A stretch of DNA of 64,000 nt from Solirubrobacter deserti. GTDB taxonomy: Bacteria; Actinomycetota; Thermoleophilia; Solirubrobacterales; Solirubrobacteraceae. The stretch lies in contig NZ_QPKJ02000002.1 in NCBI RefSeq assembly GCF_003344625.1, positions 372,001-436,000 on the forward strand, given 5' to 3'. The notes under the pieces are model-generated. The model made no database searches and was not told the DNA's origin. It was given only the letters and a program-made list of their open reading frames with translations. Positions 25,480 through 40,882 of this stretch are shown here, piece after piece; the first letter of the stretch is position 1; each line of letters opens with the position of its first letter. The position numbers were made by a program, and so were the translations under genes.

Positions 25480-26591
25480 GCGACCCGGGCCCGGCGGGCC
25501 GCGGCGACGAGGACGCGGGGCGGGACGACGAGGGCGCGGGGCGCGGCGACGGGGACGCGGGGCGCGGTCACGAGGCGGTGGAGCGCGGCGACGAGGCGGC
25601 GCGGCACGCCGATCGGCGGCAGCCGGCGGCGCCCGCCGGCGCGGGGCCGCCGCCTGGCGCGGCCGGCCGGACGCTGCGGGGCGCGGAGGCGCGCGCCGTC
25701 GTGCGCGAGCGCGGACGGCGCACGCTCGCGCGCCGCCAGCTCGCGCACCGGCACGCGCAGCTGGAGCGGGTCTCGCCCGAGGTCGGCCGGCTCGACGAGG
25801 CCGCGCTGCACGAGCTGCTGGGCACGGACCCCGATGCGGCCGTCGCGCTGCTCGCCGACCTCGCGGCCGCCACCGACCCGCGACTGCGCGCGCACGCCCG
25901 GCGGCTCGCGGCGCGGTTGTTCGTACGCGCCGGTCGCCTCGGCCGGGAGACGACGAGCGGCTACCGGCGGCTCGCGCCGGGGCGGGCCGGGCAGGACGGA
26001 GACCTCGACCTCGACCTGACCTTCGAGGTGGCGGGAGGCCGGCCGCGGCACGCCGACGAGCTCGTCGCGCGGCGATGGGTGGCGCCGCAGCGGGCACTGT
26101 GCCTGCTCGTCGACCACAGCGGCTCGATGCACGGCCACGCGGTCGGCCTGGCGGCGATGGCGAGCGCCGCCGTCGTGCTCACGCACACCGAGCGCGCGAC
26201 GACGAGCGTGATCGCGTTCGCCAAGGACGCGCTCGTGCTGCAGGCGCAGGACGAGCCGCGACCTCCGGCGGCGCTGGTCGACGATCTGCTGTCGCTGCGC
26301 GGACAGGGCCGCACGGACCTGGCGCTCGCGCTGCGGACGGCGGCGGCGCAGCTCGCAAGCCGGCCCGCGGCCGACCGCCACGTGATCCTGCTCTCGGACT
26401 GCCGCCGCACCGCCGGCGGCGACCCGCACGGCGCCCTCGCCGGGCTCGACCGCGTCGATGTGCTCGGCACGAGTGCGGACCCGGAGGCCGTCGCGGCGGG
26501 CCGTGCGCTGGCCGCGCGCGCGAGGGGTTGTTACCGGCTTTCGACGAATTACGTCACGTTGCGAGCCGGACTGCTTACGCTGCTCTCCTAG
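25476..26591 (+). CDS. VWA-domain protein, MoxR partner (BchD/CoxE-like)
   Basis: A protein of about 371 residues. Its C-terminal third is a von Willebrand A domain with MIDAS motif LLVDHSGSMHGHAV and the later LSLRGQGRTDLALAL threonine/aspartate loop; the middle is Arg/Ala-rich helical. The N-terminal 45 residues are an acidic tandem repeat of GRGD/E type. The start is uncertain: CTG 25476 overlaps the MoxR stop as CTGA, whereas the first standard start is GTG 25578, inside the repeat. Metal-binding VWA proteins of this kind pair with MoxR ATPases, as magnesium chelatase D does with I. Confidence 0.8.
   Translation: MSDPGPAGRGDEDAGRDDEGAGRGDGDAGRGHEAVERGDEAARHADRRQPAAPAGAGPPPGAAGRTLRGAEARAVVRERGRRTLARRQLAHRHAQLERVSPEVGRLDEAALHELLGTDPDAAVALLADLAAATDPRLRAHARRLAARLFVRAGRLGRETTSGYRRLAPGRAGQDGDLDLDLTFEVAGGRPRHADELVARRWVAPQRALCLLVDHSGSMHGHAVGLAAMASAAVVLTHTERATTSVIAFAKDALVLQAQDEPRPPAALVDDLLSLRGQGRTDLALALRTAAAQLASRPAADRHVILLSDCRRTAGGDPHGALAGLDRVDVLGTSADPEAVAAGRALAARARGCYRLSTNYVTLRAGLLTLLS
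25496..25612 (+). repeat. GC-rich minisatellite encoding GRGDxDAG repeats
   Basis: About 115 bases of imperfect tandem repeat with units built from GGCGACGAGGACGCGGGGC-like sequence, read in the VWA frame as GRGDEDAGRDDEGAGRGDGD and further variants. Slippage in such DNA makes repeat number likely to vary between strains. Confidence 0.6.
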
Positions 26592-26624
26592 AGAAAGCGT
26601 GTAGGCATCTGGACGAATGGTGGC

Positions 26625-26653
26625 TTGACCCCCTGCACAGCGCGGGATACGGT
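26625..26653 (+). promoter_or_regulatory. Candidate sigma-70-type promoter of surface-protein cluster
   Basis: TTGACC (26625-26630), a 17-base spacer and TACGGT (26648-26653, TANNNT type) form a good match to a housekeeping actinobacterial promoter. It is 34 bases after the VWA stop and about 100 bases before the start of the first secreted protein, implying a leader of roughly 90 nucleotides. Confidence 0.55.
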
Positions 26654-26752
26654 CGCTCCCACTCGGGGTGTATCGCGCCTCACCGGGGAGAGGTGCGTCC
26701 TACGATGCTCCGCTCGGTCAACTACGGGTCCATGCAGTTTGCAGGAGGGAGA

Positions 26753-28162
26753 GTGGCAGAGATGCCCTCAGCAGGTCGGATATTGCGGATGTCGATAGCG
26801 GGAGTCATCGCCGCCGCGATCCTGGGTGTGTCCGCCGCCAGTGCGTCCGCCGCCCCAGTGTGGCTCTGGGCCTGCCACGGCCCCGCCGGCGAGGCCATCC
26901 CGGCGTCCCCGGCCTCCGACAAGGTCGAGACCCTCACTGCCGGCAACACGGCCGACGGAAGCAAGCCGAGCCTCGACGGCTGCGGCACGCCCGGCTCGGC
27001 CGGCGTCACCCTCTCGGTCCCGGCCGACACGCCGGCCGCGGGCAGCACCTCGACCCTCACGGTCACGCTGCCGGCCGGCCTGAGCGCGACCGCGGCCAAG
27101 GTCAACGGCGCGGTCCGCGGCGGCGGCACGTTCCGCGTGATCCCGGAGGGCCCGGCGGTCACCAACCCGGCCATGGGCTCGGTCATCGAGAACCTGCCGC
27201 CCTCCAACGCCGTGACCCTCGAGCTGAGCTGCACGTCGAGCTGCGCGACCGCGGCGGTCGACGTCACGAGCGTGGTGCTCCGCGTCGACGACTCGGTGGG
27301 CCCCGAAGGCGCCGTGAGCTGGAACACCCCGGTCGACAAGGTCATGAAGCTCACGCCGGCCGCGACCGACCAGGGCGTCGGCCTCGAGCGCGTCGAGGTC
27401 ACCGTCGGCAACCGCACGGAGACCGCCTGGTTCGGCAACTGCCGCGACCTCACGGCCGATCCCGCCACCAACGACCGCCGGCTGGACACCACCGCGTGCC
27501 TGCGTGGCCGCAGCGACGGCATCAACAAGCCGCTGCGGCTCCTCGAGGCGCCGATCACCGTGTGGGAGACCGCGGACGGCGCCACGGAGCCGGACCCGCG
27601 GACGCTGCCGGAGGGCATGTACACCCGCACCGTCACGGTCTACGACGCCGCCGGCAACAGCGACGTGATCAGCGGTCAGGTCGAGGTCTGGCACCCGCCG
27701 GCGCCGATCTCCATCCGCACCCTGAACATCTCGACGGCGTCCGTCTTCGAGCAGCCCGGCAACAACAACCCGAACACCCCGCCCGGTGGCGGCGTTCAGG
27801 GCGACCAGGCCACGCAGTGCCGCACGCCGCGCCTGTCGGTGATGCTCGACTCCAAGCCGGTCCGGGTCTCCAAGGGCACCCCGGTCCTGCTGTACAAGAA
27901 GGCGTACCGCTTCACGGGCCGCCTCACGTGCGTGATCAATGGCAAGCGCCGTTCGGCGCCCAAGCGCACCAAGCTTTCCGTGCTCAACAAGGTCGGCCGC
28001 AAGACGGTCCGCAAGCCCAACACGACCATCCGTGACAAGGGCCGGGTCAACGTCAAGCTGGCCTTCGTGAGCTCCCGGACGGTGATCTTCCGCTACACCA
28101 ATGCGGCGGGTCAGAAGTCCGAGGTCAAGATCAAGGTCCGCGTCACCAAGAAGAAGAAGTAA
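26753..28162 (+). CDS. Secreted multi-domain beta-rich surface protein (cluster gene A)
   Basis: A 469-residue protein with a signal peptide (MSIAGVIAAAILGVSAASAS, cleavage near SAA/PVW). The mature start APVWLWACHGPAGEAIP is a motif I associate with secreted proteins of Solirubrobacterales. Several beta-sandwich stretches follow (TSTLTVTLPAGLSATAAKVN; TVTVYDAAGNSDVISGQVEV), with paired cysteines (CTSSC; NCRD; CLRG). The C-terminal 100 residues are very basic and end KVRVTKKKK, which could bind acidic wall polymers. AGGAGG is 4 bases before GTG 26753; ATG 26762 is an alternative. No enzyme motif is present. First gene of a four-gene secreted cluster. Confidence 0.7.
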   Translation: MAEMPSAGRILRMSIAGVIAAAILGVSAASASAAPVWLWACHGPAGEAIPASPASDKVETLTAGNTADGSKPSLDGCGTPGSAGVTLSVPADTPAAGSTSTLTVTLPAGLSATAAKVNGAVRGGGTFRVIPEGPAVTNPAMGSVIENLPPSNAVTLELSCTSSCATAAVDVTSVVLRVDDSVGPEGAVSWNTPVDKVMKLTPAATDQGVGLERVEVTVGNRTETAWFGNCRDLTADPATNDRRLDTTACLRGRSDGINKPLRLLEAPITVWETADGATEPDPRTLPEGMYTRTVTVYDAAGNSDVISGQVEVWHPPAPISIRTLNISTASVFEQPGNNNPNTPPGGGVQGDQATQCRTPRLSVMLDSKPVRVSKGTPVLLYKKAYRFTGRLTCVINGKRRSAPKRTKLSVLNKVGRKTVRKPNTTIRDKGRVNVKLAFVSSRTVIFRYTNAAGQKSEVKIKVRVTKKKK

Positions 28163-28204
28163 AGGCGCTCTGAGCTGAGCATCAGAGTGCGGGAGGAAGA
28201 GGGA

Positions 28205-28975
28205 ATGAAGCGAGTCATGGCGCTGGGCGCCGCAGCACTGGCGGTGGGCGCCGGCGCCGCGGCGTACGCCCACAAGGCGACGGCCGGTGGGGCGGCCGCC
28301 GCACAGGCGGACGGAGGCCTCGCGGTCTCGTCCGGCACGATCGACGCGCCGGCAAAGGCCGGCGCGTACGGCCCGATCAAGGTCTCCAACCGGTCCGCGT
28401 CTGCGCTGACGGTCACCGTCGCGCCGCGCCAGTGGACCCAGGCCGCCGACGGCAAGGTGTCCCCGAACCGGCGCGGCGGCCTCGCCGGCGTCAGCGTGAG
28501 CGCTCCGAGCTTCACGCTCCAGCCGGGCGAGGAGCGCGAGCTCACGGTCAGCGTGGCCTCGCTCCCGGCCGCGGGCTCGCTGTTCGGCGCGCTCGAGGTC
28601 GTCGGCCTGCCGGCCGACGTCGCCACCCGCAAGGGCGTCGTCCTCGGCTACCGCGTCGTGAGCGCGATCCGCCTCAAGCCGGCCGCGCCGAAGCTCGGCG
28701 TCACGGCGGGCACGATCAAGGCCAGCAAGGGCACGGCCGTGCTGCCGATCAAGAGCACGGGCAACACGCTGGACCCGGTCAGCGGCACGATCGCCGTCAA
28801 GGACTCGCGCGGCACGCGCAACCTGAGCGTCCCGGCGACGAAGATCCTGCCGGGCAAGACCATCAACGTCCCGCTCGGCACCAAGCTCCAGAAGGGCAGC
28901 GCGACCGCCAAGATCACGCTGCGTCAGAAGGGCAAGGTCGCGCTCTCCCTGACCAAGAAGTTCACGGTCAAGTGA
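28205..28975 (+). CDS. Secreted WxL-interacting/chaperone-like protein (cluster gene B)
   Basis: A 256-residue exported protein with a signal peptide (MKRVMALGAAALAVGAGAAA). Two beta-sandwich halves are suggested: GTIDAPAKAGAYGPIKVSNR and VTVAPRQWTQ with FTLQPGEERELTVSV in the first, STGNTLDPVSGTIAVKD in the second. This order resembles DUF916 (WxL-interacting) proteins and, more distantly, pilus chaperones. Gene D is a paralogue sharing the same landmarks. The resemblance is from pattern recognition only. A GGAGGA ribosome site precedes ATG 28205, 42 bases after gene A. Confidence 0.62.
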   Translation: MKRVMALGAAALAVGAGAAAYAHKATAGGAAAAQADGGLAVSSGTIDAPAKAGAYGPIKVSNRSASALTVTVAPRQWTQAADGKVSPNRRGGLAGVSVSAPSFTLQPGEERELTVSVASLPAAGSLFGALEVVGLPADVATRKGVVLGYRVVSAIRLKPAAPKLGVTAGTIKASKGTAVLPIKSTGNTLDPVSGTIAVKDSRGTRNLSVPATKILPGKTINVPLGTKLQKGSATAKITLRQKGKVALSLTKKFTVK

Positions 28976-29045
28976 TGCGCTCCGAATCGCCCCTCCGCGT
29001 GTTGATTGAACCGATGGTCACGAAGCGAGCTGTGGAAGGCACGAA

Positions 29046-29552
29046 ATGAAGCTGCGTACGTTCATCGCCGTGTCGGCGGTCGGGGCTGTGGCGGTCGCCG
29101 CACCGCTGGCCTCCGCGCAGACCCCGCCGGTCTCCGGCGGCACCACGATCGGCGCGACCGTGCCGAGCATGCTCGAGCTGATCATCACGCAGCCGAAGGC
29201 GACGCTCGCCGCGTTCCCGAAGGCCAAGACCTACTCGACGTCGTTCGACGTCGCCGTCACCACCACCGACAATGCGGCGCAGCTGTCGCTCACGGACGGT
29301 GAGGTCAACAGGGGCTCGAAGATGGGGCGCCTGGCGAGCGGCAAGAAGCTGCTGCCGCTGCCGCTGGAGGCCCGCGTGGGCAAGTCGGCGTTCGCCGCGC
29401 TCAACACGCCGGTCGAGTCCCAGCTGACCAAGTGGAACCAGGCCGTGGCGCGCTCGAAGGCGACGGTGAACCTGCGCCAGAAGGTCAAGGCCAAGGCGTC
29501 CGGCAACTACCGCAAGGTGCTGCTCGTCACGCTCTCGACGGACACCCCGTAG
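29046..29552 (+). CDS. Secreted WxL-like beta protein (cluster gene C)
   Basis: A 168-residue exported protein: signal peptide MKLRTFIAVSAVGAVAVAAP, cleavage near SAQ/TPP. The mature part begins GGTTIGATVPSMLELII, continues FDVAVTTTDNAAQLSLTDGE and ends in SGNYRKVLLVTLSTDTP, the kind of all-beta layout with a terminal strand seen in WxL-type surface proteins, although the W-x-L signature itself is absent. It is flanked by the paralogous genes B and D, so it may be the client they bind. GGAAGG precedes ATG 29046. Confidence 0.6.
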   Translation: MKLRTFIAVSAVGAVAVAAPLASAQTPPVSGGTTIGATVPSMLELIITQPKATLAAFPKAKTYSTSFDVAVTTTDNAAQLSLTDGEVNRGSKMGRLASGKKLLPLPLEARVGKSAFAALNTPVESQLTKWNQAVARSKATVNLRQKVKAKASGNYRKVLLVTLSTDTP

Positions 29553-29603
29553 GCGCACTGCGCCCCGATTCACAAGCAGAAGAAACGCAAGGAGATACCC
29601 GAA

Positions 29604-30401
29604 GTGAAGCTCGTTAGGAGTCGGCTGGTAGCCGGCGCCCTCGGCCTGGCCGTCGCGGGTGCCGCGACCGGCAGCGTCATCGCCCGCGCGGACGAGTCCG
29701 CGCCGGTGGCGCAGGCCGCGCAGCAGGGCGGCGTGTCCATCACGCCAGCTACCGTCGAGCGCACGGCCAAGCGTGGCGCCGTCGGCACGATCACGATCAA
29801 GAACACGACGAAGGACACCATGCGGGTCACGGTCAACGTGCGCCCGTGGATCCAGAACCGCAACACCGGGGCGGTCGCCCTGAACACGCGGGCGAGCCTG
29901 TCGCCGTACGTGCGGGCTTCGCCGCAGACGTTCAATCTGCGGCCCGGTGAGCGCCGCGTCACGTTCAACATGCGCCGCATGACGGCTTCGGGTTCGCTCT
30001 ACGCCGGCTTCCAGGTGTTCGCGAAGCAGACCAAGGCCAAGGCCCGCAACGGGATCATTCCCCAGTGGGATCTGCGCGGGAAGATGCGTCTGAACCCGAC
30101 GCGCAAGAACCCGAACCTGCGCATCGGCGCGGCCGACGTCGTCGGCCGCGGCAACAACCGCTCGTTGATTCTCGCCGTCCGCAACACCGGCAACACGCTG
30201 GACCCGGTCGGCGGCACCGTGTCGATCACGGGCCCGACGTCGCGCAACGCCACGATCCCGCAGGTCGGCGTCGTGCCGGGGCAGGTCGTCTACCTCAAGG
30301 GCGGCGCGCTGCGCGGCATGCGTGCCGGCAACTACACCGCCACGTGGAACGTCACCATCGGCGGCAAGCGCTTCACCCAGAAGCGCACCTTCAGGCTGTA
30401 G
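29604..30401 (+). CDS. Secreted WxL-interacting/chaperone-like protein (cluster gene D)
   Basis: A 265-residue paralogue of gene B. Shared landmarks are ITIKNTTKDTMRVTVNVRPW, FNLRPGERRVTF, SGSLYAGFQVF and NTGNTLDPVGGTVSITGP, in the same order and spacing. A signal peptide (LVAGALGLAVAGAATGSV) precedes. The protein is strongly basic (many Arg). AAGGAG lies 8 bases before GTG 29604. The stop is only two bases before the ATG of the BlaI-type gene, so the surface cluster and its presumed regulator are one transcription unit. Confidence 0.65.
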   Translation: MKLVRSRLVAGALGLAVAGAATGSVIARADESAPVAQAAQQGGVSITPATVERTAKRGAVGTITIKNTTKDTMRVTVNVRPWIQNRNTGAVALNTRASLSPYVRASPQTFNLRPGERRVTFNMRRMTASGSLYAGFQVFAKQTKAKARNGIIPQWDLRGKMRLNPTRKNPNLRIGAADVVGRGNNRSLILAVRNTGNTLDPVGGTVSITGPTSRNATIPQVGVVPGQVVYLKGGALRGMRAGNYTATWNVTIGGKRFTQKRTFRL

Positions 30402-30403
30402 CC

Positions 30404-30784
30404 ATGTCCGCGCCCCCGCCTCCGCTTCACGAGCTCGAATCCGAGATCATGGAGGAGATGTGGGGGCGCGATGAGGCCACTGTGCGTGACGTGCAGATGG
30501 CGCTCAACGCGCGCGGCGAGAAGACTCGCGCGTACACGACGCTGCTGACGGTCATGACGCGGCTCGACAACAAAGGCCTGCTGGTCCGGCGCCGGGCCGG
30601 CCGTCACGACGTCTACGCCCCCGCCCTGTCGCGCGAGGCGTACCTCGCAGCGCGCGCGGAAGCGTCCGTCGAGGCGCTGGTGGAGGACTTCGGCGACCTC
30701 GCGCTCGCCCACTTCGCCCGCCACATCGAGGATCTGGACTCCGAACGCCTCGAGACGCTGCGCCGACTGGCACGCGGTGAGTGA
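30404..30784 (+). CDS. BlaI/MecI-family transcriptional repressor
   Basis: A 126-residue winged-helix repressor: LHELESEIMEEMWGRDEATV, then YTTLLTVMTRLDNKGLLVRR form the DNA-binding head, and the C-terminal helices (EALVEDFGDLALAHFARHIE) the dimerisation arm. In the classic system the repressor is cut when a membrane BlaR1 protease senses beta-lactam; here the next gene is a BlaR1-like protease lacking a penicillin-binding domain. It overlaps that gene by eight bases and follows gene D by two. The likely targets are its own operon or another cell-wall gene set. Confidence 0.9.
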   Translation: MSAPPPPLHELESEIMEEMWGRDEATVRDVQMALNARGEKTRAYTTLLTVMTRLDNKGLLVRRRAGRHDVYAPALSREAYLAARAEASVEALVEDFGDLALAHFARHIEDLDSERLETLRRLARGE

Positions 30785-31676
30785 CAGCCGCGGACTCCGC
30801 CGGGCGGAGTTCGCGGTTGCGGCCTTTGGGCTCACAGCGTTCCTGCTCGCGCTGCTGTTCGTGATCGACGGCGTGCGCTTCCACAGCGACCTGCTGCTGC
30901 ACGCGCTGTCGGACATCCCGCGCGGGCAGTTCCACCACGGGCACGAACTGCTGCTGATGGCGCTGGTCCTGTTCGACGTGGTCGCGCTGGCTCGTAGCGG
31001 GCGCTCGCTGTGGCGCGGGGCGAGCGCGCACCGGCGGCTCGCGGCGGCCCTGCCGGTGAGCGAGGAGCGTGCGGTCGGCGGCCGCACCGTGCTGGTCGTG
31101 CCCGGCGCCGCGCCGCGCGCGTTCTGCGCTGGGCTCGCGCGGCCGCGTGTGTACGTCTCCGAAGGTGCGATCGGGCGCCTGAATGCGGCGGAGCTGGCCG
31201 CCGTCGTCGCGCACGAGGGCCATCATGCCGATCGCCGTGACCCGCTCCGGATCTTGGTCGCCCGCGCGATCGGCGACGCCTACTCGCTACCGGCGCTGCC
31301 GCGGCGCGAGCAGGCGCTGTCGGAGCTCGCCGCCGACGCCGCCGCGGTCCGGCGCGGCGGCACCGCGCCGCTGGCGTCCGCGCTGCTGGCGTTTCCCGGC
31401 GGGATCGCCCCCGAGCGCGTCGACCGGCTCGCCGGCGCGCGCCCTGTGGGCCAGGTGCCGACCGCGATGGTCGTCTGCGCCGCGCTCGTGATCGCCGCGC
31501 TGTCGCTGGGCATCGCCGCGCAGCTGCTGGTGTCCGGCCACCCGCCGTTCTGCGTGCCGCTGGCCGCTCCCGGCTGGATCCTCGTCGCGGTGATCGCGCG
31601 CTTCGTCGCGCTCGGTCCCGCGTGGCTGGGGTGGCGCCGGGCGGAGCGCTTCCTGCGCCCGGCGCCCTCCACCTAG
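30777..31676 (+). CDS. M56 (BlaR1-like) membrane metalloprotease
   Basis: A 299-residue integral membrane protease. Hydrophobic segments lie near residues 14-31, 56-72, 230-252 and 262-285. The zinc site VVAHEGHHADRRDPL has HExxH at 146-150, and ELAADAAAV (Glu183) supplies the third ligand. No extracellular beta-lactam sensor domain is present, so the stimulus is not a BlaR1-type penicillin sensor; it may respond to membrane or wall state and cleave the adjacent BlaI-type repressor. GTG 30777 overlaps the repressor stop. Confidence 0.88.
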   Translation: MSDSRGLRRAEFAVAAFGLTAFLLALLFVIDGVRFHSDLLLHALSDIPRGQFHHGHELLLMALVLFDVVALARSGRSLWRGASAHRRLAAALPVSEERAVGGRTVLVVPGAAPRAFCAGLARPRVYVSEGAIGRLNAAELAAVVAHEGHHADRRDPLRILVARAIGDAYSLPALPRREQALSELAADAAAVRRGGTAPLASALLAFPGGIAPERVDRLAGARPVGQVPTAMVVCAALVIAALSLGIAAQLLVSGHPPFCVPLAAPGWILVAVIARFVALGPAWLGWRRAERFLRPAPST

Positions 31677-31737
31677 GAGATCCGCGAAGCGATCTCCGAG
31701 CGGAGGTGAGCGCGCGCCGGCGAAGCCGGCCGCGCGC
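31676..31737. terminator. Double hairpin between convergent genes
   Basis: GGAGATC (31676-31682) pairs with GATCTCC (31691-31697), and a 12-bp GC stem with one bulge forms between 31710-31721 and 31725-31737 around a GAA loop. They fill the space between the convergent M56 and RTX-like genes and probably terminate both transcripts. Confidence 0.6.
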
Positions 31738-31747
31738 ACGAACCGCC

Positions 31748-32923
31748 CTAGCCGCGCTTCTTCTTCTCGCAGTCCCCGCTGACCTGCACACGGGCGCGAT
31801 TGCCCTTGAACTTCGAGACGATCACGGTGTCGTCGCCCGGGCCGCAGCTCACGCGCGCGCGGCCGCTGGCGGTGATCGCGGTCACCGTGTCATCACCCGG
31901 GCCGGCGTTCACGGTGGTGCTGCGGCCGGAGATCCGGATGTTGTCGGCGCCGTTGCCGCCGTGGATCGTCGTGGAGAGCCCGTTGCCCTGCAGGTAGTCG
32001 TTGCCGTCGCCGCCGAGCACGCGCGTCTTGCCGCGGCCGGCGTAGATGGTGTCGTCGCCCGCGCCGCCGTCGGCGAGGTCGTTCTGGCCGCCCGCGCCAC
32101 CCTTGTGGCGGGCGTCCGCCCACAAGATGTCGTTGCCGCCGTGGCCGTAGAGCTTGTTGGACCCGCCCTGGCCGTTGAGCCGGTCGTTGCGGTCGGTGCC
32201 GTTCTTGGTGCCGTTGCCCGACCAGGTGATGCCGCGGGTGGGGTCACGCTCGGCGGCCAGGTCGATCACGTTCTCGCAGTCGGGCTGCGCCGCGAGCAGC
32301 TTGCGGTTCGTGCGGCCCATCGGGGCCGGCGAGTTGTAGACGGTGTCGTTGCCCTCGCCGCAGGTGATGCTGCGGATCGCGCTCGGCGGGTCGGAGTTCA
32401 GGTGGACGGTGTCGTCGCCGGGGCCGGCGTCGATGCGGTCAGGACCCGTGTCCGAGTGGATCGTGTCGTTGCCGTTGCCGCCGTTGAGGTCGTCGCCGCC
32501 GGAGCCGCCGTCGACGACGTCGTTGCCGTCGCCGCCGTTGACGATGTCCGGCGCCTCGTCGCCCTGCAGGCTGTCGTCGCCGGGACCGCCGAGCAGGGTG
32601 TCGTGGCCGAACCCGCCGAGGCCCTGGTCGTTGCCGTCCTCGCCGATCAGGCGGTCGTCGCCCGAGCCGCCGTTCATGTTGTCGTTGCCGGCGCCGCCGT
32701 AGGTCTCGTCCGGGCCGGTGTCGCCGGTCAGGATGTCGTCGCCGCCGAGGCCGCGGATCGCGTCGCGCCCGCCGAGGCCGTTGATCACGTCGGGGCCCTC
32801 AGTGCCGCTGAGCCGTTCCGCAGCGTTGGAACCGACGATGTTCTTTGCGAACGCCGTCGCCGCGAAGACGAGCGCTCCAGCGATGGTCAGGGCTAGCAAG
32901 GTACGGATTTTGGACACATGCAT
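31748..32923 (-). CDS. Secreted RTX/hemolysin-type calcium-binding repeat protein
   Basis: A 391-residue exported protein with signal peptide (RTLLALTIAGALVFAATAFA). Almost the whole mature chain consists of nonapeptide-type repeats (GGDGNDVVDGGSGGDDLNGG and variants such as GPGDDTV), which form a calcium-binding parallel beta-roll. Two cysteine-containing insertions (SITCGEGND; QPDCENV) interrupt them and the end is basic (CEKKKRG). There is no protease, lipase or toxin domain, so it is probably a structural or adhesive surface protein. AAAGGA precedes ATG 32923. It is convergent with the M56 gene of the surface cluster. Confidence 0.88.
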   Translation of the reverse strand: MHVSKIRTLLALTIAGALVFAATAFAKNIVGSNAAERLSGTEGPDVINGLGGRDAIRGLGGDDILTGDTGPDETYGGAGNDNMNGGSGDDRLIGEDGNDQGLGGFGHDTLLGGPGDDSLQGDEAPDIVNGGDGNDVVDGGSGGDDLNGGNGNDTIHSDTGPDRIDAGPGDDTVHLNSDPPSAIRSITCGEGNDTVYNSPAPMGRTNRKLLAAQPDCENVIDLAAERDPTRGITWSGNGTKNGTDRNDRLNGQGGSNKLYGHGGNDILWADARHKGGAGGQNDLADGGAGDDTIYAGRGKTRVLGGDGNDYLQGNGLSTTIHGGNGADNIRISGRSTTVNAGPGDDTVTAITASGRARVSCGPGDDTVIVSKFKGNRARVQVSGDCEKKKRG

Positions 32924-32988
32924 TCCTTTGCCCGGAGCGTCCAGGCGGATAACGGGTGAAAGGCGCCAACAGTGGCATCCTTGCCCTC

Positions 32989-33528
32989 ATGAGCGAGGCT
33001 TCTGTCGAGCCGATCGTCCGCGCGGAGCGCCCGCTCCCGCCCGGCACACGCATCGGCCATGTGCATCTTCGCACCGCGAACATCGACCGCGTCCGCGACT
33101 TCTACGTCGGCGTGCTCGGGTTCGACGTCATCGCCGAGCTGCGTGACCTCCCGGGCTGGGGCACGACGGGGGACGCGCTGTTCTTGAGCGCCGACGGCTA
33201 TCACCACCATCTCGGCTTCAACACCTGGAAGTCGGCGGATGGACCGCCGCAACCCGACGGCGTCTGCGGCCTGCACCACGTCGCGATCCTGTTCCCGACG
33301 CGCGCCGGGCTCGCCGAGGTGGTGCGGCGGCTGCTCGAGGCGCAGTGGCCGCTGCGGCAGACGATCGACCACGGCACGCACGAGGCGGTCTACGTCACCG
33401 ACCCCGACGGCAACGACCTCGAGCTCTACTGGGACCGCCCGTTCTCGCAGTGGCCGGTCGACGAGGCGGGCCACGTGCGCTTCGTCGGCGGCGAGCTCGA
33501 CCTCCAGGGTCTCTTGGCTACGCGGTGA
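32989..33528 (+). CDS. VOC-family extradiol dioxygenase-like protein
   Basis: A 179-residue vicinal-oxygen-chelate protein of catechol-2,3-dioxygenase style. GHVHLRTANIDRVRDFYVGV gives the first metal His, LHHVAILFPTRAGLAEVV the second His, and GNDLELYWDRP the Glu; the LSADGYHHHLGFNTW segment is also typical. Such proteins cleave aromatic rings or act on thiol adducts; activity is not proven by sequence. ATG 32989 is preferred over an upstream GTG at 32956. It overlaps the convergent asparaginase gene by 11 bases. Confidence 0.85.
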   Translation: MSEASVEPIVRAERPLPPGTRIGHVHLRTANIDRVRDFYVGVLGFDVIAELRDLPGWGTTGDALFLSADGYHHHLGFNTWKSADGPPQPDGVCGLHHVAILFPTRAGLAEVVRRLLEAQWPLRQTIDHGTHEAVYVTDPDGNDLELYWDRPFSQWPVDEAGHVRFVGGELDLQGLLATR

Positions 33529-34534
33529 GCTCGCCCGCCAGGTCCTGCGCGAACAGCGCGCGCACCTCGTCGGGCGCGCGGCCCTCGCTGAGCAGCACGA
33601 CCAGCTTCGCGTAGGCGGCCTCGGTGGTCATGTCGAGCCCGCCGACCGCACCGGCCTCGATCAGCGGCGCGCTCGTCGCGTACGCGTTGAGGTCGACGCG
33701 GCCGTCGACGCACTGGGACACGACGCCGACGACCACGCCGCGCGCCGCGCCCTCCGCGAGCACCTGCAGCAGCTCGTCGTCGGCGCTCGGCACGGTGCCG
33801 GCGCCGTAGGCCTCCAGGATCACGCCGCGGGCGGGCGGCGCGAGCGCCGCGCGGAGCAGAGCCGCCGGCATGCCCGGGTACAGACGCAGCAGGTTCACCG
33901 GCGCGTCGAGCGTGATCGGCAGCCCGACCGCGCCGGGCTCCTGGTCGCGCAGGCGCGCGACGTCGACCTCGATCTGCACGCCGGCCATGCCCAGCGGCGG
34001 GAGGTTGGGGGACGAGAAGGCTTCGAAGCCCGACGCGCTCGCCTTCACCGCGCGGCATCCGCGCAGGATGTGCGAGCCGAACACCAGGCACACCTCGCGC
34101 ACGTCGTCGCGCGCGGCCACCAGCACGGCCGTCAGGAGGTTCTGGCGGCCATCGCTGCGCAGGACGCCGAGCGGGATCTGGCTGCCGGTGATGACCACGG
34201 GCTTGCCGAGACCTCGCAGCAGGAAGGCGAGCGCCGAAGCGGTGTAGGCCATCGTGTCCGTCCCGTGCAGCACGACGAAGCCGTCGTAGTGGTGGCGGTG
34301 CTGCGCGAGGTCGCGCGCGATCCGCAGCCAGTCCGACGGGCGCGCGTTCGCGGAGTCCAGCAACGGCTCGTACTCGCAGATCGAGAGCTCGGGCACCTCC
34401 GCGGTGTGCAGCTGCGGCTGGTCGCGGATCTGCTCGGTCAGGTGCCCGGGCACGGGCGCGTAGCCCGTCTCGGTGGCCTTCATGCCGATCGTCCCGCCGG
34501 CGTAGGCGACATAGATGCGCTTGCGTTCGGTCAC
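33518..34534 (-). CDS. Type I L-asparaginase
   Basis: A 338-residue cytoplasmic-type asparaginase. Both catalytic threonines are in place: YAGGTIGM (Thr15) and LHGTDTMAYTAS (Thr92, with Asp93). It hydrolyses asparagine to aspartate and ammonia. The lack of a signal peptide and the length agree with AnsA. GTG 34534 overlaps the TGA of the PaaX-type regulator gene (GTGA), so the enzyme is translated with the regulator. An asparaginase next to a PaaX regulator and an aromatic-acid operon is unexpected; a related amide substrate is possible. Confidence 0.88.
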   Translation of the reverse strand: MTERKRIYVAYAGGTIGMKATETGYAPVPGHLTEQIRDQPQLHTAEVPELSICEYEPLLDSANARPSDWLRIARDLAQHRHHYDGFVVLHGTDTMAYTASALAFLLRGLGKPVVITGSQIPLGVLRSDGRQNLLTAVLVAARDDVREVCLVFGSHILRGCRAVKASASGFEAFSSPNLPPLGMAGVQIEVDVARLRDQEPGAVGLPITLDAPVNLLRLYPGMPAALLRAALAPPARGVILEAYGAGTVPSADDELLQVLAEGAARGVVVGVVSQCVDGRVDLNAYATSAPLIEAGAVGGLDMTTEAAYAKLVVLLSEGRAPDEVRALFAQDLAGELTA

Positions 34535-35334
34535 GTGAGCGCGTCGAAGTGTCGCTGGGCGGCGGGCGCCCACGCTTCGTGGCGGGCGGTGAACAGCGCG
34601 TGCGCCCGGCGGCGCGGCCAGTCGGGCGGGAGCAGGTCGTCCGGCAGGTCCGGGTCGATGAACGGGAAGCGGCGCCACGCGTGCACGAGCGCCGTCTGGG
34701 CGGCGAACGCCGCGGCGTCGTCCTCGGGCTCGAGCTCGTCGAAGTCGGCGACGAACTGGTCGTAGTGCGCGCGCAGGTTCGCGAGGTCCCAGGCTTCGTC
34801 GATCACCCGTTGCGTGCCGCCGAGCGCGCCCAGCTCCGCGCGGAACGTGAGCAGCTGCGCGGGTTCGGTCGCCTGCACCATCGTCTCCCGGTCTACGTGC
34901 GGCGTGATCCAGAGGCCGCCGCCGAGGGAGCCGAAGCCGGCCCACGCGAGCTGGGTGGTGAGCCGGTGGCGCAGCTCGCGCCGCTGCTCGGGCACGCGCA
35001 GGACGAGCAGCAGCCAGCGCCCGTCCCAGCTCACGGGCCCGCCGAAGCCGTAGATCCGGCGCGCGCCCACGCGCAGCAGCTCCGCCGACTTCGGCGTGAG
35101 CCGCATGCGCGAGCGCCGGCCCACGCGCTCGCTGGCGATCAGGTCCTCACGCGCCGAGCGCACGACGGCCTGCCGAGCGGCGCTCGGGGTGAAGCCGAGC
35201 AGTTGCAGCCCGGCGATCAACGCCTCCTGCCAGGCGCCGTCCGGGCGCGGCAGCAGGAACTCGCCGAGCACGGTGAGCAGGGTCGAGCGGGCGGCGGGGG
35301 CGCCGACGGAGGCGCGGCGGAGAACGTCGTCCAA
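34531..35334 (-). CDS. PaaX-family transcriptional regulator
   Basis: A 267-residue regulator of the PaaX family. The N-terminal winged helix reads LLTVLGEFLLPRPDGAWQEA and FTPSAARQAVVRSAREDLIA; the central PaaX domain has WDGRWLLLVLRVPEQRR and FGSLGGGLWITPHVDRE, and the C-terminal domain ends with HAWRRFPFIDPDLP. In known systems PaaX represses phenylacetate genes and is released by the CoA ester. The start is probably TTG 35334, 24 bases from the divergent operon's ATG. Its likely target is the operon beginning at 35359, which includes an aryl-CoA ligase that could make the inducer. Confidence 0.86.
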   Translation of the reverse strand: MDDVLRRASVGAPAARSTLLTVLGEFLLPRPDGAWQEALIAGLQLLGFTPSAARQAVVRSAREDLIASERVGRRSRMRLTPKSAELLRVGARRIYGFGGPVSWDGRWLLLVLRVPEQRRELRHRLTTQLAWAGFGSLGGGLWITPHVDRETMVQATEPAQLLTFRAELGALGGTQRVIDEAWDLANLRAHYDQFVADFDELEPEDDAAAFAAQTALVHAWRRFPFIDPDLPDDLLPPDWPRRRAHALFTARHEAWAPAAQRHFDALT

Positions 35335-35358
35335 GGCCGTGGAACATATCCTCCGGGG

Positions 35359-36960
35359 ATGCAGGCTCTCGTCGGCGCGACCATCGCGGACGTCTATACC
35401 GGGACGTGGATACGCGCGAACGTGGAGTTCGACGACGGCGTGATCACCTACGTCGGCCCGCGCGCGCCCGCGTGTGAGGCGACCGACATCACCGGGAAGC
35501 TCCTGGTGCCGGGCTACATCGAGCCGCACACGCACCCGTGGTGCCTGTACTCGCCCGCGTCGTTGCTCGAGGTGGCGGTGCCCGACGGCACGACGACGCT
35601 CGTCTACGACAACCTGTTCTTCTTTTTGTCGCACGGGGTGGACGGGCTGCGGCGGATCGTCGAGCAGATGCGCGCCGCGCCGGCGCACATTCGCTGGGTC
35701 GCGCGAATCTCGCCGCAGTCGGCGTATCCCGACGAGGCCGAGCGGTTCGCGATCGACGTCATCGAGCCGATGCTGTCGTGGCCGGAGGTCGTGGCCTCGG
35801 GCGAGATCACGAACTGGATGTCGGTCGCGCGCGGCGAGCCGCGGGTGGCGGCCGGGATCGCGGCGGCCAGAGCGGCGCGGCGGCGCGTCGAAGGCCACAA
35901 CGCGGGCGCGTCCTACGACCGGCTCAACGAGCTGTCGCTGGCCGGCATCTCCGCCGATCACGAGGCCATCACGGCGGAGGAGGCGCTGAGCCGGCTGCGG
36001 CTGGGGATGTGGACGATGCTGCGCCAATCGTCGCTGCGGCCGGACCTCCCGGCCTTGTTGGACGGCCTGCGCGACGTGCGTGGAGGCGCGCGCCGGCTGA
36101 TGCTCACCACCGACGGCGCCACGCCGTCGTTCTACGAGGAGCACGGCGTGATCGGCGGAGCGCTGCGGATCGCGTCCGAGCGCGGCGTGGAGCCGATGCG
36201 CGCGCTGCAGATGGCGACGATCGACCCCGCCACGTTCCTCGGCCTCGACGAGCGGCTCGGCGGGATCGCGCCGGGGCGCGCCGCGACGTTCAACGTGCTG
36301 CCGGAGGTCGGGGAGTGGCGGCCCGAGACCGTGTACGTGCGCGGCGAGGTGGTCGCGCGGGAAGGGCGCCTGTGCGGGCCGCCGCCCCGGATCGACTGGC
36401 CGGCCGGCCCGGGGCTCGTCGCGCCCGACGCAAGCCTGTTCGCGCCGTTGACCGGCGTGCAGCCGGTTGCGCGCTATGAGTCGGCCGTGATCAACCGGCG
36501 CGTGGACCGCGCGGTGGAGCCGGATGACGTCCACGCCGTGCTCGTCGGCCGCGACGGCGCGTGGGCGGCGAAGGGCGTCGTGGAGAACTTCCTGGACGTC
36601 GACGGCTTCGCCACGACCGCGACGACCTCGCTCGAGCTGCTCGTGGTGGGGCGTGATCCGGCGGCGATGGCCCGTGCAGCCGCGCGCGTGGCCGAGCTCG
36701 GCGGCGGCTTCGCGTTCGACGGCGGCTGGTCGGCCCCGCTGGAGGTCGACGGGCTCATCTCCGCCGGAACGTTCGACACAACAGTTGCGATCGATAGTAG
36801 GCTGTCTGACGAGATGAGGAGAGCCGGGTACCCGTTCCACGATCCCCTCTACAGCCTGCTGTTCGCGTCGGGCGACTTCCTGCCGGAGCTGCGCGTGACG
36901 CCGAGCGGTCTGCTGGAGGTGAAATCGCGGACGGTGCTCGCTGGTACGGTGCGGCCGTGA
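35359..36960 (+). CDS. Adenine deaminase-family amidohydrolase
   Basis: A 533-residue amidohydrolase. The metal motif PGYIEPHTHPW carries His57 and His59; later VEGHNAGASYDRLNELSLAG, SADHEAITAEEAL, LMLTTDGATPSFY and PGRAATFNVL follow the adenine deaminase order, and residues 380-525 form the C-terminal adenine deaminase domain. Canonical enzymes read D-x-H-x-H-I-E-S; here it is EPHTHPWCLYSP, so the substrate may not be adenine. It could open a cyclic amide or imide ring. It is the first gene of a seven-gene operon and overlaps the ligase gene by four bases (GTGA). Confidence 0.83.
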   Translation: MQALVGATIADVYTGTWIRANVEFDDGVITYVGPRAPACEATDITGKLLVPGYIEPHTHPWCLYSPASLLEVAVPDGTTTLVYDNLFFFLSHGVDGLRRIVEQMRAAPAHIRWVARISPQSAYPDEAERFAIDVIEPMLSWPEVVASGEITNWMSVARGEPRVAAGIAAARAARRRVEGHNAGASYDRLNELSLAGISADHEAITAEEALSRLRLGMWTMLRQSSLRPDLPALLDGLRDVRGGARRLMLTTDGATPSFYEEHGVIGGALRIASERGVEPMRALQMATIDPATFLGLDERLGGIAPGRAATFNVLPEVGEWRPETVYVRGEVVAREGRLCGPPPRIDWPAGPGLVAPDASLFAPLTGVQPVARYESAVINRRVDRAVEPDDVHAVLVGRDGAWAAKGVVENFLDVDGFATTATTSLELLVVGRDPAAMARAAARVAELGGGFAFDGGWSAPLEVDGLISAGTFDTTVAIDSRLSDEMRRAGYPFHDPLYSLLFASGDFLPELRVTPSGLLEVKSRTVLAGTVRP

Positions 36961-38420
36961 ACAACTCCGGGACGCTGGTCGACCGGCGGTTGGAGGCCGG
37001 TCACTCAGACAAGGTGGCAATCCGCTGCGCCGGCGAGTCGATCACCTACGCGCAGTTGCACGCTCGCATCTGCGCGGTGGGCAACGTGCTGGAGGAACTC
37101 GGCGTCGGGCGTGAGGATCGCGTGCTCATGGTTCTCGACGACTCACCCACCTTTCCGGCGCTCTTCCTCGGTGCGATGCGTGCCGGTGCGGTACCGGCGC
37201 CGGTGTCATTTCTCGACAGCACCGAGAACTTCGCCCACTACGCACGTGACTCCTACGCGAAGTTGATCGTCGCCGAGGACGGTCTGCTGGAGCGACTGCC
37301 CGCGGGGGCGATGGGACGCTCACAGTTCGAGTCGTTGCTGGCGGACGCTCCGGCTGAGAGGGCGCCCGCCGACACGCACCGTGACGACATGGCGTTCTGG
37401 CTCTTCAGTGGCGGCTCGACCGGGTTTCCCAAGGGTGTGGTGCATCTGCACCACGACATCGAGTACACATGCGAGACCTATGCCAAGGAGATCCTTGGCA
37501 TACAGGCTGACGACGTCACCTTCTCCTCGACGAAGCTCTACCACGCGTACGGTCTCGGCAACAACCTGACGTTCCCGTACTGGGTGGGCGCCACGACCGT
37601 GCTCCGCCCGGGCCGTCCGGAGCCTCGCGGCCTGCTCGAGACCGCCGCCGCACAGCGTCCGACCCTGTTCTTCAGCGTGCCGACGCTGTACGGCGCGATG
37701 GTGAACCTGGACGACGCGTTCTCCTTCGACCTGAGCTCAGTGCGCATGTGTGTGTCGGCCGCCGAGCCGCTGGCGCCCGAGGTGTTGCGGCGCTGGCAGA
37801 ACTGCTTCGGCCTGGACATCGTGGACGGCATCGGCTCCACCGAGATGTTGCACATCTACTGCTCCAACCGCCTGGGTGAAGTGCGTCCCGGGACCAGTGG
37901 TAAGCCGGTGCCCGGCTACGAACTGGTGTTGCTCGACGAGTCCCGCGCTCCGGTGTCCGATGGGGAGGTGGGCAACCTGTGGGTGCGTGGGGATTCCGCG
38001 CTCGCGTATTACTGGCACCAGCACGAGAAGACCAAGGCCGCGATCCACGGCGACCTCTTCTTCACCGGCGACCGCTACCGGGTCGACGAGGACGGTGACT
38101 ATGTGTACGAGGGCCGGGCCGACGACATGATCAAGATCGGCGGGCTGTGGGCTTCGCCGATCGAGATCGAGAACGTGCTCGTCGAGCACCCGCGCGTGCA
38201 GGAGGCCGCCGCGGTGGGGGTGGACGCCGACTACACGACCCGCGTGAAGGCGTTCGTGGTCGTCCGCGCCGAGCCGGGCGACCACGAGCTGGTCGCCGAG
38301 CTGCAGGAGTGGTGCAAGACGCGCCTGCGCCGCTACGAGTACCCGCACTTCATCGAGTTCGTCGACGATCTCCCCAAGACCCCGACCGGCAAGATCCAGC
38401 GCTACAAGCTCCGAGCATGA
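36957..38420 (+). CDS. Benzoate-CoA ligase-family acyl-CoA synthetase
   Basis: A 487-residue adenylate-forming enzyme. The phosphate loop reads WLFSGGSTGFPKGVVHLHHD, with STKLYHAYGLGNNLTFPYWV, the GIGSTEMLHIY motif, FFTGDRY and the C-terminal lysine in PKTPTGKIQRYKLRA. Wording matches the benzoate-CoA ligase family (PaaK-like relatives are more distant). It activates an aryl or similar carboxylic acid with ATP and CoA, the entry step of the pathway. GTG 36957 overlaps the amidohydrolase stop. Codon use in this gene looks a little less GC-extreme than its neighbours. Confidence 0.9.
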   Translation: MNNSGTLVDRRLEAGHSDKVAIRCAGESITYAQLHARICAVGNVLEELGVGREDRVLMVLDDSPTFPALFLGAMRAGAVPAPVSFLDSTENFAHYARDSYAKLIVAEDGLLERLPAGAMGRSQFESLLADAPAERAPADTHRDDMAFWLFSGGSTGFPKGVVHLHHDIEYTCETYAKEILGIQADDVTFSSTKLYHAYGLGNNLTFPYWVGATTVLRPGRPEPRGLLETAAAQRPTLFFSVPTLYGAMVNLDDAFSFDLSSVRMCVSAAEPLAPEVLRRWQNCFGLDIVDGIGSTEMLHIYCSNRLGEVRPGTSGKPVPGYELVLLDESRAPVSDGEVGNLWVRGDSALAYYWHQHEKTKAAIHGDLFFTGDRYRVDEDGDYVYEGRADDMIKIGGLWASPIEIENVLVEHPRVQEAAAVGVDADYTTRVKAFVVVRAEPGDHELVAELQEWCKTRLRRYEYPHFIEFVDDLPKTPTGKIQRYKLRA

Positions 38421-38770
38421 TCTTCACGGCCCCCGAAGTGCAGGACTTCGCCGGCGTCGAGACGGCGCTCACCGACGCGTTCCGGCGCTCGCAGGCAGCC
38501 GCGCAGGCCCAGGAGCCGATGGTGTTCGTGCTGCGCAACGAGCACCTGCTGGGCCAGGACGGCGCGCCGGGCGCGATGCTGGCCAACGCGCTGCTCTCCG
38601 GGATGCGCACGCTGGCCGCGGAGGGGCACGCGGCGAATGCGGTCGCCGTGGGGGACGAGCACTCCCCCGAGGACCTGCAGCACTGGATCGAGGTGCTTTC
38701 TCAGGGCCGCGGCGTGATGGGTGAGCTCGTCCACGTGGGCGCCAAGCACGTGGGGAAGATCCAGGCATGA
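38417..38770 (+). CDS. Small SDR-like accessory protein (degenerate)
   Basis: A 117-residue protein not assigned to a family with confidence. The segment GAMLANALLSGMRTLAAEGH followed by NAVAVGDEHSPEDLQHWIEV resembles the second half of a short-chain dehydrogenase, without nucleotide-binding or catalytic residues, like the degenerate N-terminal domain of high-molecular-weight FabG proteins. ATG 38417 overlaps the ligase stop (ATGA) and its own stop overlaps the SDR start (ATGA), so it may be a subunit or stabiliser of that SDR. Confidence 0.6.
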   Translation: MIFTAPEVQDFAGVETALTDAFRRSQAAAQAQEPMVFVLRNEHLLGQDGAPGAMLANALLSGMRTLAAEGHAANAVAVGDEHSPEDLQHWIEVLSQGRGVMGELVHVGAKHVGKIQA

Positions 38771-39417
38771 GCCGGGCGGTCGTGACCGGCGCGGCGCGCG
38801 GAATCGGGGCGGCGGTCGCCGATCGCCTGGAGCGCGACGGGTTCGACGTCCTGCGCGTCGATCTGGCTGGCGGGTTCATCGCTGACGTGACGAACGCCGA
38901 GGACCGGGCCCGGATCGTCGCCGAGGCCGGCACGGTGGACGTGCTGGTCAACAACGCCGGGATCACGCGGGACGCGCGGATCGTCAAGATGACCGAGGAG
39001 CAGTTCCTGGCCGTCATCCGCGTCAATCTCGGAGCCGCCTATGAGCTTTCGCGCGCGTGTAACTATGGCGACGGCGCCTCGATCGTCTCGCTCGCCTCGC
39101 GCGCGTACCTGGGCAACTTCGGCCAGTTCAACTACAGCGCCTCCAAGGGCGGCCTCGTGGGCATGACGCGCGCGCTGGCGCTCGAGCTCGCCCCGCGCGT
39201 GCGCGTGAACGCCATCGCGCCGAGCCTCACGGCTTCCGAGATGACGCGCGCGATGCCGGAGAAGGTGCTGGAGAAGATGATCGCGAGCATCCCGCTCGGC
39301 CGCCAGGCCGAACCCGAGGAGATCGCCGAGACGATCGCCGCGCTGGCGTCACCGGCCGCGGCGTATGTGACGGGCCAGGTCCTGGTCGCCTGTGGCGGCC
39401 GCAGCCTGGCTCCTTGA
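38767..39417 (+). CDS. Short-chain dehydrogenase/reductase (FabG-like)
   Basis: A 216-residue SDR with all classical motifs: TGAARGIGAAVADRL for cofactor binding, LVNNAGITRD, a serine before the YSASKGG active-site motif, and PSLTASEMTRAMPEK. It reduces a 3-oxoacyl-CoA or oxidises a hydroxyacyl-CoA. In this operon it probably supplies the hydroxyacyl-CoA dehydrogenase step after the enoyl-CoA hydratase. It is slightly shorter than usual at the N-terminal third. Confidence 0.92.
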   Translation: MSRAVVTGAARGIGAAVADRLERDGFDVLRVDLAGGFIADVTNAEDRARIVAEAGTVDVLVNNAGITRDARIVKMTEEQFLAVIRVNLGAAYELSRACNYGDGASIVSLASRAYLGNFGQFNYSASKGGLVGMTRALALELAPRVRVNAIAPSLTASEMTRAMPEKVLEKMIASIPLGRQAEPEEIAETIAALASPAAAYVTGQVLVACGGRSLAP

Positions 39418-39436
39418 CCCCAGGGAGGAACGCAAC

Positions 39437-40882
39437 GTGACCGGAATGCTCATCGCCGGCGAGCGCACCGAAGGTGCGGCGGGCGAAGGGATCGACGTGG
39501 TCGATCCCGCCACCGAACAGACGCTCGAGAGCGTGCCGCGCGGGACCGCGGCGGACGTGGACGCGGCCGTCCAGGCGGCGGACAAGGCCTTCGCCGAGTG
39601 GCAGAAGACGGACGCCGAGGAGCGCGCGACGCTGTTGCGCAGGGCGATCGCGCTGATCGAGCGCGACCGCAAGGACCTCACAATGTCGCTCGTGCACGAG
39701 CAGGGCAAGCCCGTGACCGAGGCCGGCGGGGAGATCCACCACCTCATCCACGGCCTCAACTACTACGCCGACCTCGCGACGAAGGTGCGCGGCTCCTACC
39801 AGCCGCTCCCGAGCGCGCTGAGCAAGGCCTACGGCATGGTGATCCGGCGCCCGATGGGCGTCGTGGCGGCGATCGTGCCCAACAACTTCCCGTTGACCCT
39901 GCTGGGCACCAAGCTCGCGCCCGCGCTGATGGCGGGCAACACGGTCGTGGTCAAGCCGGCCGCGACCACGCCGCTCACGACGCTGAAGATCGCCGATCTG
40001 CTGCTGGAGGCCGAGTTCCCGCCCGGCGTCGTGAACGTGATCACGGGCAAGGGCTCGGAGGTCGGCGACGCGCTCGTCACGCACGACAAGGTGCGGCGCG
40101 TCGCGTTCACGGGCTCGACCGCGGTCGGGCGCCACATCATGGGACTGGCGGCGCCCAAGCTCAAGCGGATGACGATGGAGCTGGGCGGCTCGGACCCGGT
40201 GATCGTCGCGCCGGACGCCAACATCAAGGCCGCCGCGCGCGGGATCGCGATCGGCCGCTTCTGGAACTGCGGCCAGATGTGCCTCGGCGGCAAGCGCATC
40301 TACGTCTTCGACGAGGTCTACGACGAGCTGCTCGAGCAGCTCACCCGCACTGTCGGTAAGTACGAGCCCGGCCTCGGGTGGGAGAAGGCCGAAAAGCCGG
40401 CGATCCGCGTCGGCCCGCTGCACACCTCCGACGGGCGCGACGAGATCATGGAGCAGCTGCAGGACGCGCTGGACACCGGTGGCGAGCTCGTGCTCGGCGG
40501 TGACAAGCCTGAGGGCTCCGGCTACTTCATCAACCCGACCATCGTCACCAACCCCGCGCTCGACTCCCGTGTGGCGAAGGAGGAGACGTTCGGTCCGCTG
40601 CTGCCGATCTGGCGGGTGAGTGACCTCGATCAGGCGATCTCGCTCGCCAACGACAGTGAGTACGGTCTCGGGGCGTCCGTGTGGACCAACGACGTGCGGA
40701 TCATCCACCGCGTGGCGAACGAGGTGGAAGCCGGCATGAAGTGGGTGAACCAGTTCCACTACGGCTATGACGAGTTGCCGTTCGGCGGTGTCAAACAGTC
40801 GGGGTACGGCAAGGAGCACGGCGTCGAGGGGTTGGACTATTACCTCGAGGACATCTCGGTTGTGGTGGGAGGGCTCGAATAG
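39437..40882 (+). CDS. Aldehyde dehydrogenase
   Basis: A 481-residue NAD(P)-dependent aldehyde dehydrogenase. The catalytic Cys282 lies in FWNCGQMCLGGKR, the general base Glu248 in MTMELGGSDP, and the cofactor segment FTGSTAVGRHIM and VPNNFPLTLLGTKLAPALMA are standard. The GQxCxxxxR version is typical of vanillin/succinate semialdehyde-type enzymes. GGGAGG lies ahead of GTG 39437. It is 19 bases after the SDR gene; the enoyl-CoA hydratase starts directly after its stop. Confidence 0.93.
   Translation: MTGMLIAGERTEGAAGEGIDVVDPATEQTLESVPRGTAADVDAAVQAADKAFAEWQKTDAEERATLLRRAIALIERDRKDLTMSLVHEQGKPVTEAGGEIHHLIHGLNYYADLATKVRGSYQPLPSALSKAYGMVIRRPMGVVAAIVPNNFPLTLLGTKLAPALMAGNTVVVKPAATTPLTTLKIADLLLEAEFPPGVVNVITGKGSEVGDALVTHDKVRRVAFTGSTAVGRHIMGLAAPKLKRMTMELGGSDPVIVAPDANIKAAARGIAIGRFWNCGQMCLGGKRIYVFDEVYDELLEQLTRTVGKYEPGLGWEKAEKPAIRVGPLHTSDGRDEIMEQLQDALDTGGELVLGGDKPEGSGYFINPTIVTNPALDSRVAKEETFGPLLPIWRVSDLDQAISLANDSEYGLGASVWTNDVRIIHRVANEVEAGMKWVNQFHYGYDELPFGGVKQSGYGKEHGVEGLDYYLEDISVVVGGLE

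Follow-up and report, generated by a model that had tools for sequence, protein, structure and literature searches.

The stretch analyzed here, referred to as the window, covers 64,000 nucleotides of Solirubrobacter deserti DNA (contig NZ_QPKJ02000002.1, positions 372,001 to 436,000) and carries four consecutive genes for exported proteins, A to D, followed by genes for a BlaI-type repressor, a membrane metalloprotease and, on the opposite strand, an RTX-repeat protein. A to D probably form the heart of a system for keeping proteins at the cell surface, functioning as the WxL/WxLIP clusters do in Bacillota. In this model, the exported proteins B and D, with two immunoglobulin (Ig)-like domains each and of the WxLIP/PapD-like type, would keep C-type domains attached to the wall; insertion of a strand, which has been proposed for WxLIP and WxL and is found in fimbrial chaperones, is the most likely mode. 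The minimal, core unit in the wall would be C. Approximately 100 further proteins carry this domain at their very end, where it would act as a docking tag that leads to wall retention. A may be a further exported part, with a possible role in wall binding or adhesion. The binding of C-type domains by B and D, the retention at the wall and the role of A are what we infer from the data discussed below.

The first-pass annotation of this DNA had described A to D as secreted, beta-rich proteins linked to the repressor and the protease and faced by the RTX protein, together suggesting a cell-surface assembly system controlled by proteolysis. All of these genes are present as described, and each of A to D passes a crude rule for export signals; none of the four has a strongly hydrophobic segment at its C-terminus. 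Predicted models bear out the beta-rich character of C and D, which extends to B only through its relationship to D (32% identity). The idea of an assembly system is plausible, with support from the fold matches, the clustering of A, C and B/D elsewhere and the genome-wide set of C-type domains, and the system is larger than was proposed; its proteolytic control found no support beyond close relatives (see below).

D (29604–30401, plus strand) is an exported two-domain protein. Its predicted model matches the WxLIP fold, i.e., the tandem Ig-like PGBD-HBD arrangement, and the second-best matches are PapD-type fimbrial chaperones. B (28205–28975, plus strand) is an exported paralogue of D in the same WxLIP/PapD-like family, which has four members in the genome: B, D and one on each of two other contigs. 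At the sequence level, neither B nor D exceeds the Pfam cut-off for WxLIP_PGBD (PF06030) or WxLIP_HBD (PF11797); among 21 family members, HBD is touched in four and PGBD in one (best E values 0.0021 and 0.013, respectively), with D touched by neither. The last 40 residues of B and D contain no hydrophobic segment, so the C-terminal transmembrane helix of the WxLIP type is absent. Profile searches against PDB sequences gave nothing useful for B/D or for C, and a plasmid search with one B/D member returned no match. A further B/D paralogue is located about 2–5 kb from a large gene with a C-type ending in four of five Solirubrobacter loci (L040–L043; not L039).

C (29046–29552, plus strand) is an exported, stand-alone form of a C-terminal domain that is WxL-like or fimbrial-subunit-like. 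At least 107 copies, C included, are present in the genome; nearly all terminate large open frames, mostly of 500–1900 codons, and these large genes are scattered over the genome. Every match (107/107) reaches the last model position, and in all of the 30 best copies the final residue of the domain, a proline, is encoded immediately in front of the stop codon. These 30 also fit the pattern Y-x3-[LIVFP]-[TVL]-[FWVYL]-x-[LI]-x4-P-COOH, the residue classes of which were picked after inspecting the sequences, and an alignment of C members (A2) ends in proline in 13 of 13 rows. The position corresponding to the W of WxL is occupied by F in 27 copies, V in two and L in one; none of the 13 C members gives a match to the Pfam WxL model (E up to 10). 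Elsewhere in the genome there is another short C-like open frame, of 261 codons (L196, 1501–2283, minus strand), with the nearest B/D match on that contig more than 400 kb away.

What does this domain terminate? A Pfam scan of 20 proteins carrying it (tagged proteins), covering no more than about 660 C-terminal residues of each, matched 17 to families, among them zinc carboxypeptidase M14 (six), M28, M6, metallophosphatase and ThuA, as well as 3-keto-disaccharide hydrolase, carbohydrate-binding (CBM) and PKD modules and others. The best stretches in none of the 20 reach the C-type domain, and no NCBIfam model covers it in the eight tagged proteins scanned. Judged by a crude rule, 14 of 20 whole tagged genes encode a signal peptide; four of the remaining six have a hydrophobic leader lacking a basic residue and two have no signal, given the called starts. 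C-terminal sorting domains are known in the form of LPXTG, PEP-CTERM and the T9SS CTD. As in those systems, a single genome here encodes many unrelated exported proteins with one C-terminal domain in common, but neither C nor five large C-type proteins have a hydrophobic C-terminal segment.

Secreted hydrolases frequently carry Ig-like accessory domains, and the fold evidence for C is modest. The C-type domain could hence be a mere accessory Ig-like module, its adjacency to B/D and A being unrelated to export or retention. We regard this as improbable, since a placement that reaches the last model position without exception and stops exactly at the stop codon in the 30 best copies, the co-occurrence of C-type and B/D domains in the class sample and the WxLIP-type genes adjoining C-type genes all argue against it. 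The best fold matches of the C model raise another issue, as they are pilus subunits that polymerize by donor-strand exchange, while the second-best matches of D are the chaperones of such subunits. An alternative to a static wall anchor would be a fimbria-like fiber polymerized from C-type domains, B and D being their dedicated folding chaperones. Most copies, however, end frames of 500–1900 codons with no obvious pilin-like stacking, and an usher is not expected in a monoderm (no search aimed at ushers was made), leaving the fiber a rather remote prospect. In this context, chaperone-usher fimbriae (FimC/PapD/CfaA/CsuC chaperones with CsuA-B/CfaB/FimG-type subunits) resemble the present system in the PapD-type chaperone fold of D; they differ in that the host here is monoderm and the domain is located at the end of large proteins. 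Given the WxLIP-like fold of D and the open Ig-like C with its carboxylate end, acceptance of C-type domains by B/D at the wall, and with it retention of the tagged proteins, would be the simplest account.

The closest comparison is with the WxL clusters (Csc) of Lactobacillales and Bacillales, which comprise small WxL, large WxL and WxLIP (DUF916+DUF3324) proteins (PMC10599100, PMC9772566, PMC5817068). It has been proposed that WxLIP binds WxL by insertion of a hairpin strand and holds WxL at the peptidoglycan (PMC10599100), and the published distal WxL motif reads YXXX(L/I/V)TWXLXXXP (PMC5817068). The likeness is manifold: a small exported one-domain protein is accompanied by large ones that carry this domain C-terminally, the partner has the WxLIP fold and comprises two Ig-like domains, the genes are clustered, the C-terminal motif is similar and ends in proline, and a second kind of partner gene, encoding a membrane helix, is found beside large C-type genes. 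The differences are the Actinomycetota host, the extra protein A, the more than 100 domain copies in one genome, the replacement of W by F, V or L, the four instead of three residues preceding the final proline and the lack of a transmembrane helix in B and D. The WxL chain of 9i25 was not among the matches listed for the C model, which is not evidence of absence. Since the Trp motifs are missing, B, C and D do not reach the Pfam cut-offs and B/D lack the helix, we class the system as WxL-like and not as a WxL member.

The second kind of partner emerged from PF06030 (WxLIP_PGBD) matches in the genus. The five best, one per genome, are exported proteins of 275–334 residues with a strongly hydrophobic C-terminal segment, and their genes follow a large C-type gene at a distance of 4 bases in four genomes and of 94 bases in the fifth. 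Such WxLIP-type genes behind large C-type genes are situated away from the A–D cluster (L169, 6126–9048; L110, L111, L112 and L113). Across ten PF06030 loci, L109–L113 adjoin a C-type domain and L117 is near one; L114–L116 and L118 are not. Only one of the five exceeds the cut-off of 27.3 bits (30.3), and the others match other Ig-like families similarly. PF06030 also matches nine of 14 control genomes (two over the cut-off), so sub-cut-off matches mean little alone, and the window's own genome has no match at E up to 10.

The genes for A (11), D (14) and the protease (45) were found in different subsets of 101 genomes, each including six of Solirubrobacter, and the neighborhoods outside the genus are informative. 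All six A loci there (L044, L045, L048, L049, L051 and L053, in five genomes) hold C-type as well as B/D-type domains, and C-type and B/D domains co-occur in the class sample. Small and large C-type proteins are clustered with a B/D partner, e.g., in L045, L049 and L051; the C-type domain ends an HtaA-domain protein in L051 and a protein with Ig-/PapD-like domains in L049. The order in L045, i.e., a large C-type gene, a WxLIP-type gene and A, followed by small C and B/D, is close to the textbook WxL arrangement of large WxL, WxLIP and small WxL. Conversely, no BlaI or protease gene is present near A in these six loci within the 8.6–19 kb examined. Among 20 stretches around other protease homologues (L171–L190, part of all such places), 19 have a BlaI-type gene and none has A, B/D or C. 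By these separate co-occurrence patterns, A, C and B/D form one module and BlaI and the protease another.

A starts at 26753 (GTG, behind AGGAGGG) or 26789 and ends at 28162 on the plus strand. It is exported, with an Ig-like middle, which matches Pfam Big_13 below the cut-off, and a conserved C-terminal part. An alignment of 11 homologues (A6) reveals an invariant W-x-C-H-G-P-x-G near the mature N-terminus. Two further contigs of this genome carry an A homologue, the match on one of them being weak, and one Solirubrobacter species has a second A-like piece. An A homologue on a different contig of this genome (L168, 7478–8809, minus strand) has no B/D, C or BlaI within the surrounding 16 kb.

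Behind D, the BlaI/MecI-type repressor gene (30404–30784, plus strand; Penicillinase_R 75 bits, cut-off 22.6) begins after two bases, CC behind the D stop, as had been noted. It is one of three BlaI-type genes in the genome, and alignment with 16 homologues shows a well-conserved DNA-reading helix. The M56/M48-type membrane metalloprotease (30777–31676, plus strand; 299 residues) shares 8 bases with the BlaI gene, carries an HEGHH motif at residue 146 (HEAHH or HEGHH in five of five orthologues) and four hydrophobic segments, and scores 28.5 bits for Peptidase_M48 (cut-off 20.3) and 20.1 bits for Peptidase_M56, below the cut-off of 31. No penicillin-binding domain was matched, in keeping with the earlier statement that a penicillin sensor is lacking. 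A repressor gene followed by an overlapping gene for an HExxH membrane protease recalls BlaI/BlaR1 and MecI/MecR1, and also mycobacterial Rv1846c with Rv1845c; the differences from BlaR1/MecR1 are the missing penicillin-binding sensor, the M56 score below the cut-off and the absence of a recognizable operator at the present locus.

The first-pass annotation tentatively placed A to D under the control of this pair. Spelled out, BlaI would repress the genes at the promoter of A, and the M56-type protease would sense an envelope signal, destroy BlaI and thereby turn on the surface genes. Co-occurrence in relatives was its own test, and the outcome is split, with A to D and the pair together in six of six Solirubrobacter genomes and in none of the six A loci elsewhere, which does not establish the wiring. 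The order A, B, C, D, BlaI, protease, RTX is kept in all six (the window and L034–L038; six-frame profile searches), but so are the upstream genes for an alcohol dehydrogenase, an AAA ATPase and a VWA protein (6/6) and a glyoxalase (5/6). Since neighboring genes largely keep their order too, the position of BlaI and the protease behind D is mostly synteny, and order alone says little. Four species have D–BlaI gaps of 2, 15, 5 and 9 bases and no strong hairpin after D (-13.8 to -18.0 kcal/mol, z -0.5 to 0.9), and in them a single transcript that begins near 26660 and includes the protease gene is plausible. In S. soli the gap is 2,451 bases, with an opposite-strand gene of 730 residues in it (L037, 10375–12567; a GGDEF motif was recognized by eye), and in the sixth species it is 59 bases. 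Both of these species have a strong hairpin within 60 bases behind D (-33.2 kcal/mol, z -3.1, and -29.0 kcal/mol, z -3.4, relative to shuffled sequences) that looks like a transcription end, though no T-run follows.

The operator question was approached through the regions upstream of BlaI beside 24 protease homologues in other genera (23 with a recognizable BlaI) and several in Solirubrobacter. An unbiased dyad count yielded CTAC...GTAG and TACTA-N7-TAGTA, and a strong TACTAC-N5-GTAGTA-like dyad, likely the BlaI operator in this order, is present upstream of eight of the 23 BlaI genes (L081, L082, L084, L085, L068, L067, L070 and L078). The six Solirubrobacter clusters have no such dyad in front of either A or BlaI. 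The best candidate upstream of A agrees at 6–8 of 12 positions, the same as random windows; as the scoring matrix derives from the relatives' own sites, it is informative only for the Solirubrobacter loci. Genome-wide, the pattern occurs at 694 places on either strand versus 2767 for a reversed control, and is thus not enriched. Another Solirubrobacter pair (L171) has a perfect GACTAC-N7-GTAGTC dyad, and some others have degenerate ones by eye. The family seems to use such dyads and the recognition helix is alike, and their absence here therefore argues against canonical BlaI control of A to D. The short D–BlaI gaps without a strong hairpin, the unvaried order, the conserved helix and the single promoter that aligns in front of A in all six genomes speak for control, while the lack of the pair at A loci outside the genus, the separation of D from BlaI, with strong hairpins, in two of six species, the missing dyad and its lack of enrichment in the genome make it unlikely. 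BlaI and the protease would instead represent a widespread stand-alone pair that landed behind D in this genus and at most tunes the operon there. A second BlaI/M56 pair of this genome (L059) with a C-type gene about 1.5 kb behind it was considered as support for the wiring and set aside as a likely chance event; around five comparable Solirubrobacter pairs (L171–L175, 19 kb each), no C-type gene was found.

A wider and more tentative proposal would make retention an undescribed, genome-wide display route. The domain of about 145 residues with its P-COOH end would bring some 100 exported proteins to the wall, B/D and the WxLIP-type membrane partners would accept it by donor-strand insertion around an A–C core, and a BlaI/M56 switch would set dosage in part of the genus. 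If the retention model is correct, a desert-soil actinobacterial genus has an anchoring system with approximately 100 clients and a fold shared with WxL and Gram-negative fimbriae. It would also give a function to a domain left unnamed in the Pfam and NCBIfam scans, explain how hydrolases are kept at the surface and offer the C-type domain as a surface-display tag. Moreover, it would hint at an older, wider strategy common to WxL/WxLIP and chaperone-subunit pairs. Among the papers listed on WxL/WxLIP and on Solirubrobacter surface or secreted proteins, no title or abstract opening describes such a system, and in the main text of a paper on Solirubrobacter genomes (PMC10722151) the terms "C-terminal", "anchor", "peptidase", "secret" and "extracellular" do not appear.

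Upstream of A, a candidate sigma-70-like promoter, TTGACC-17-TACGGT (26625–26653, plus strand, with the -35 box starting at 26625), was spotted by eye, with TTGAC and TAC aligned in six of six Solirubrobacter genomes; a generic consensus scan detected no promoter. The leader between promoter and A (26660–26752, plus strand) is 88–90% identical in four further Solirubrobacter genomes and has no match in the sixth, and indels seen by eye interrupt a long reading frame. A riboswitch was considered for the leader and rejected: Rfam gave nothing above the gathering score and no match at E up to 5, and folding is no better than that of shuffled sequences (z -0.13 for the window copy, -0.27 and 1.53 in two relatives).

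At the other end of the cluster, the exported RTX nonapeptide-repeat protein (31748–32923, minus strand; HemolysinCabind 121.8 bits) keeps its place in six of six Solirubrobacter genomes; any link to the A–D system is putative. The source genome is 7.55 Mb in 428 contigs (completeness 96.7, contamination 5.0). Window positions 25654–40398 are identical, free of gaps, to 14,745 bases of NZ_JAPCID010000066.1 from S. deserti CPCC 204708, the source of which is given as desert soil (PMC10722151).
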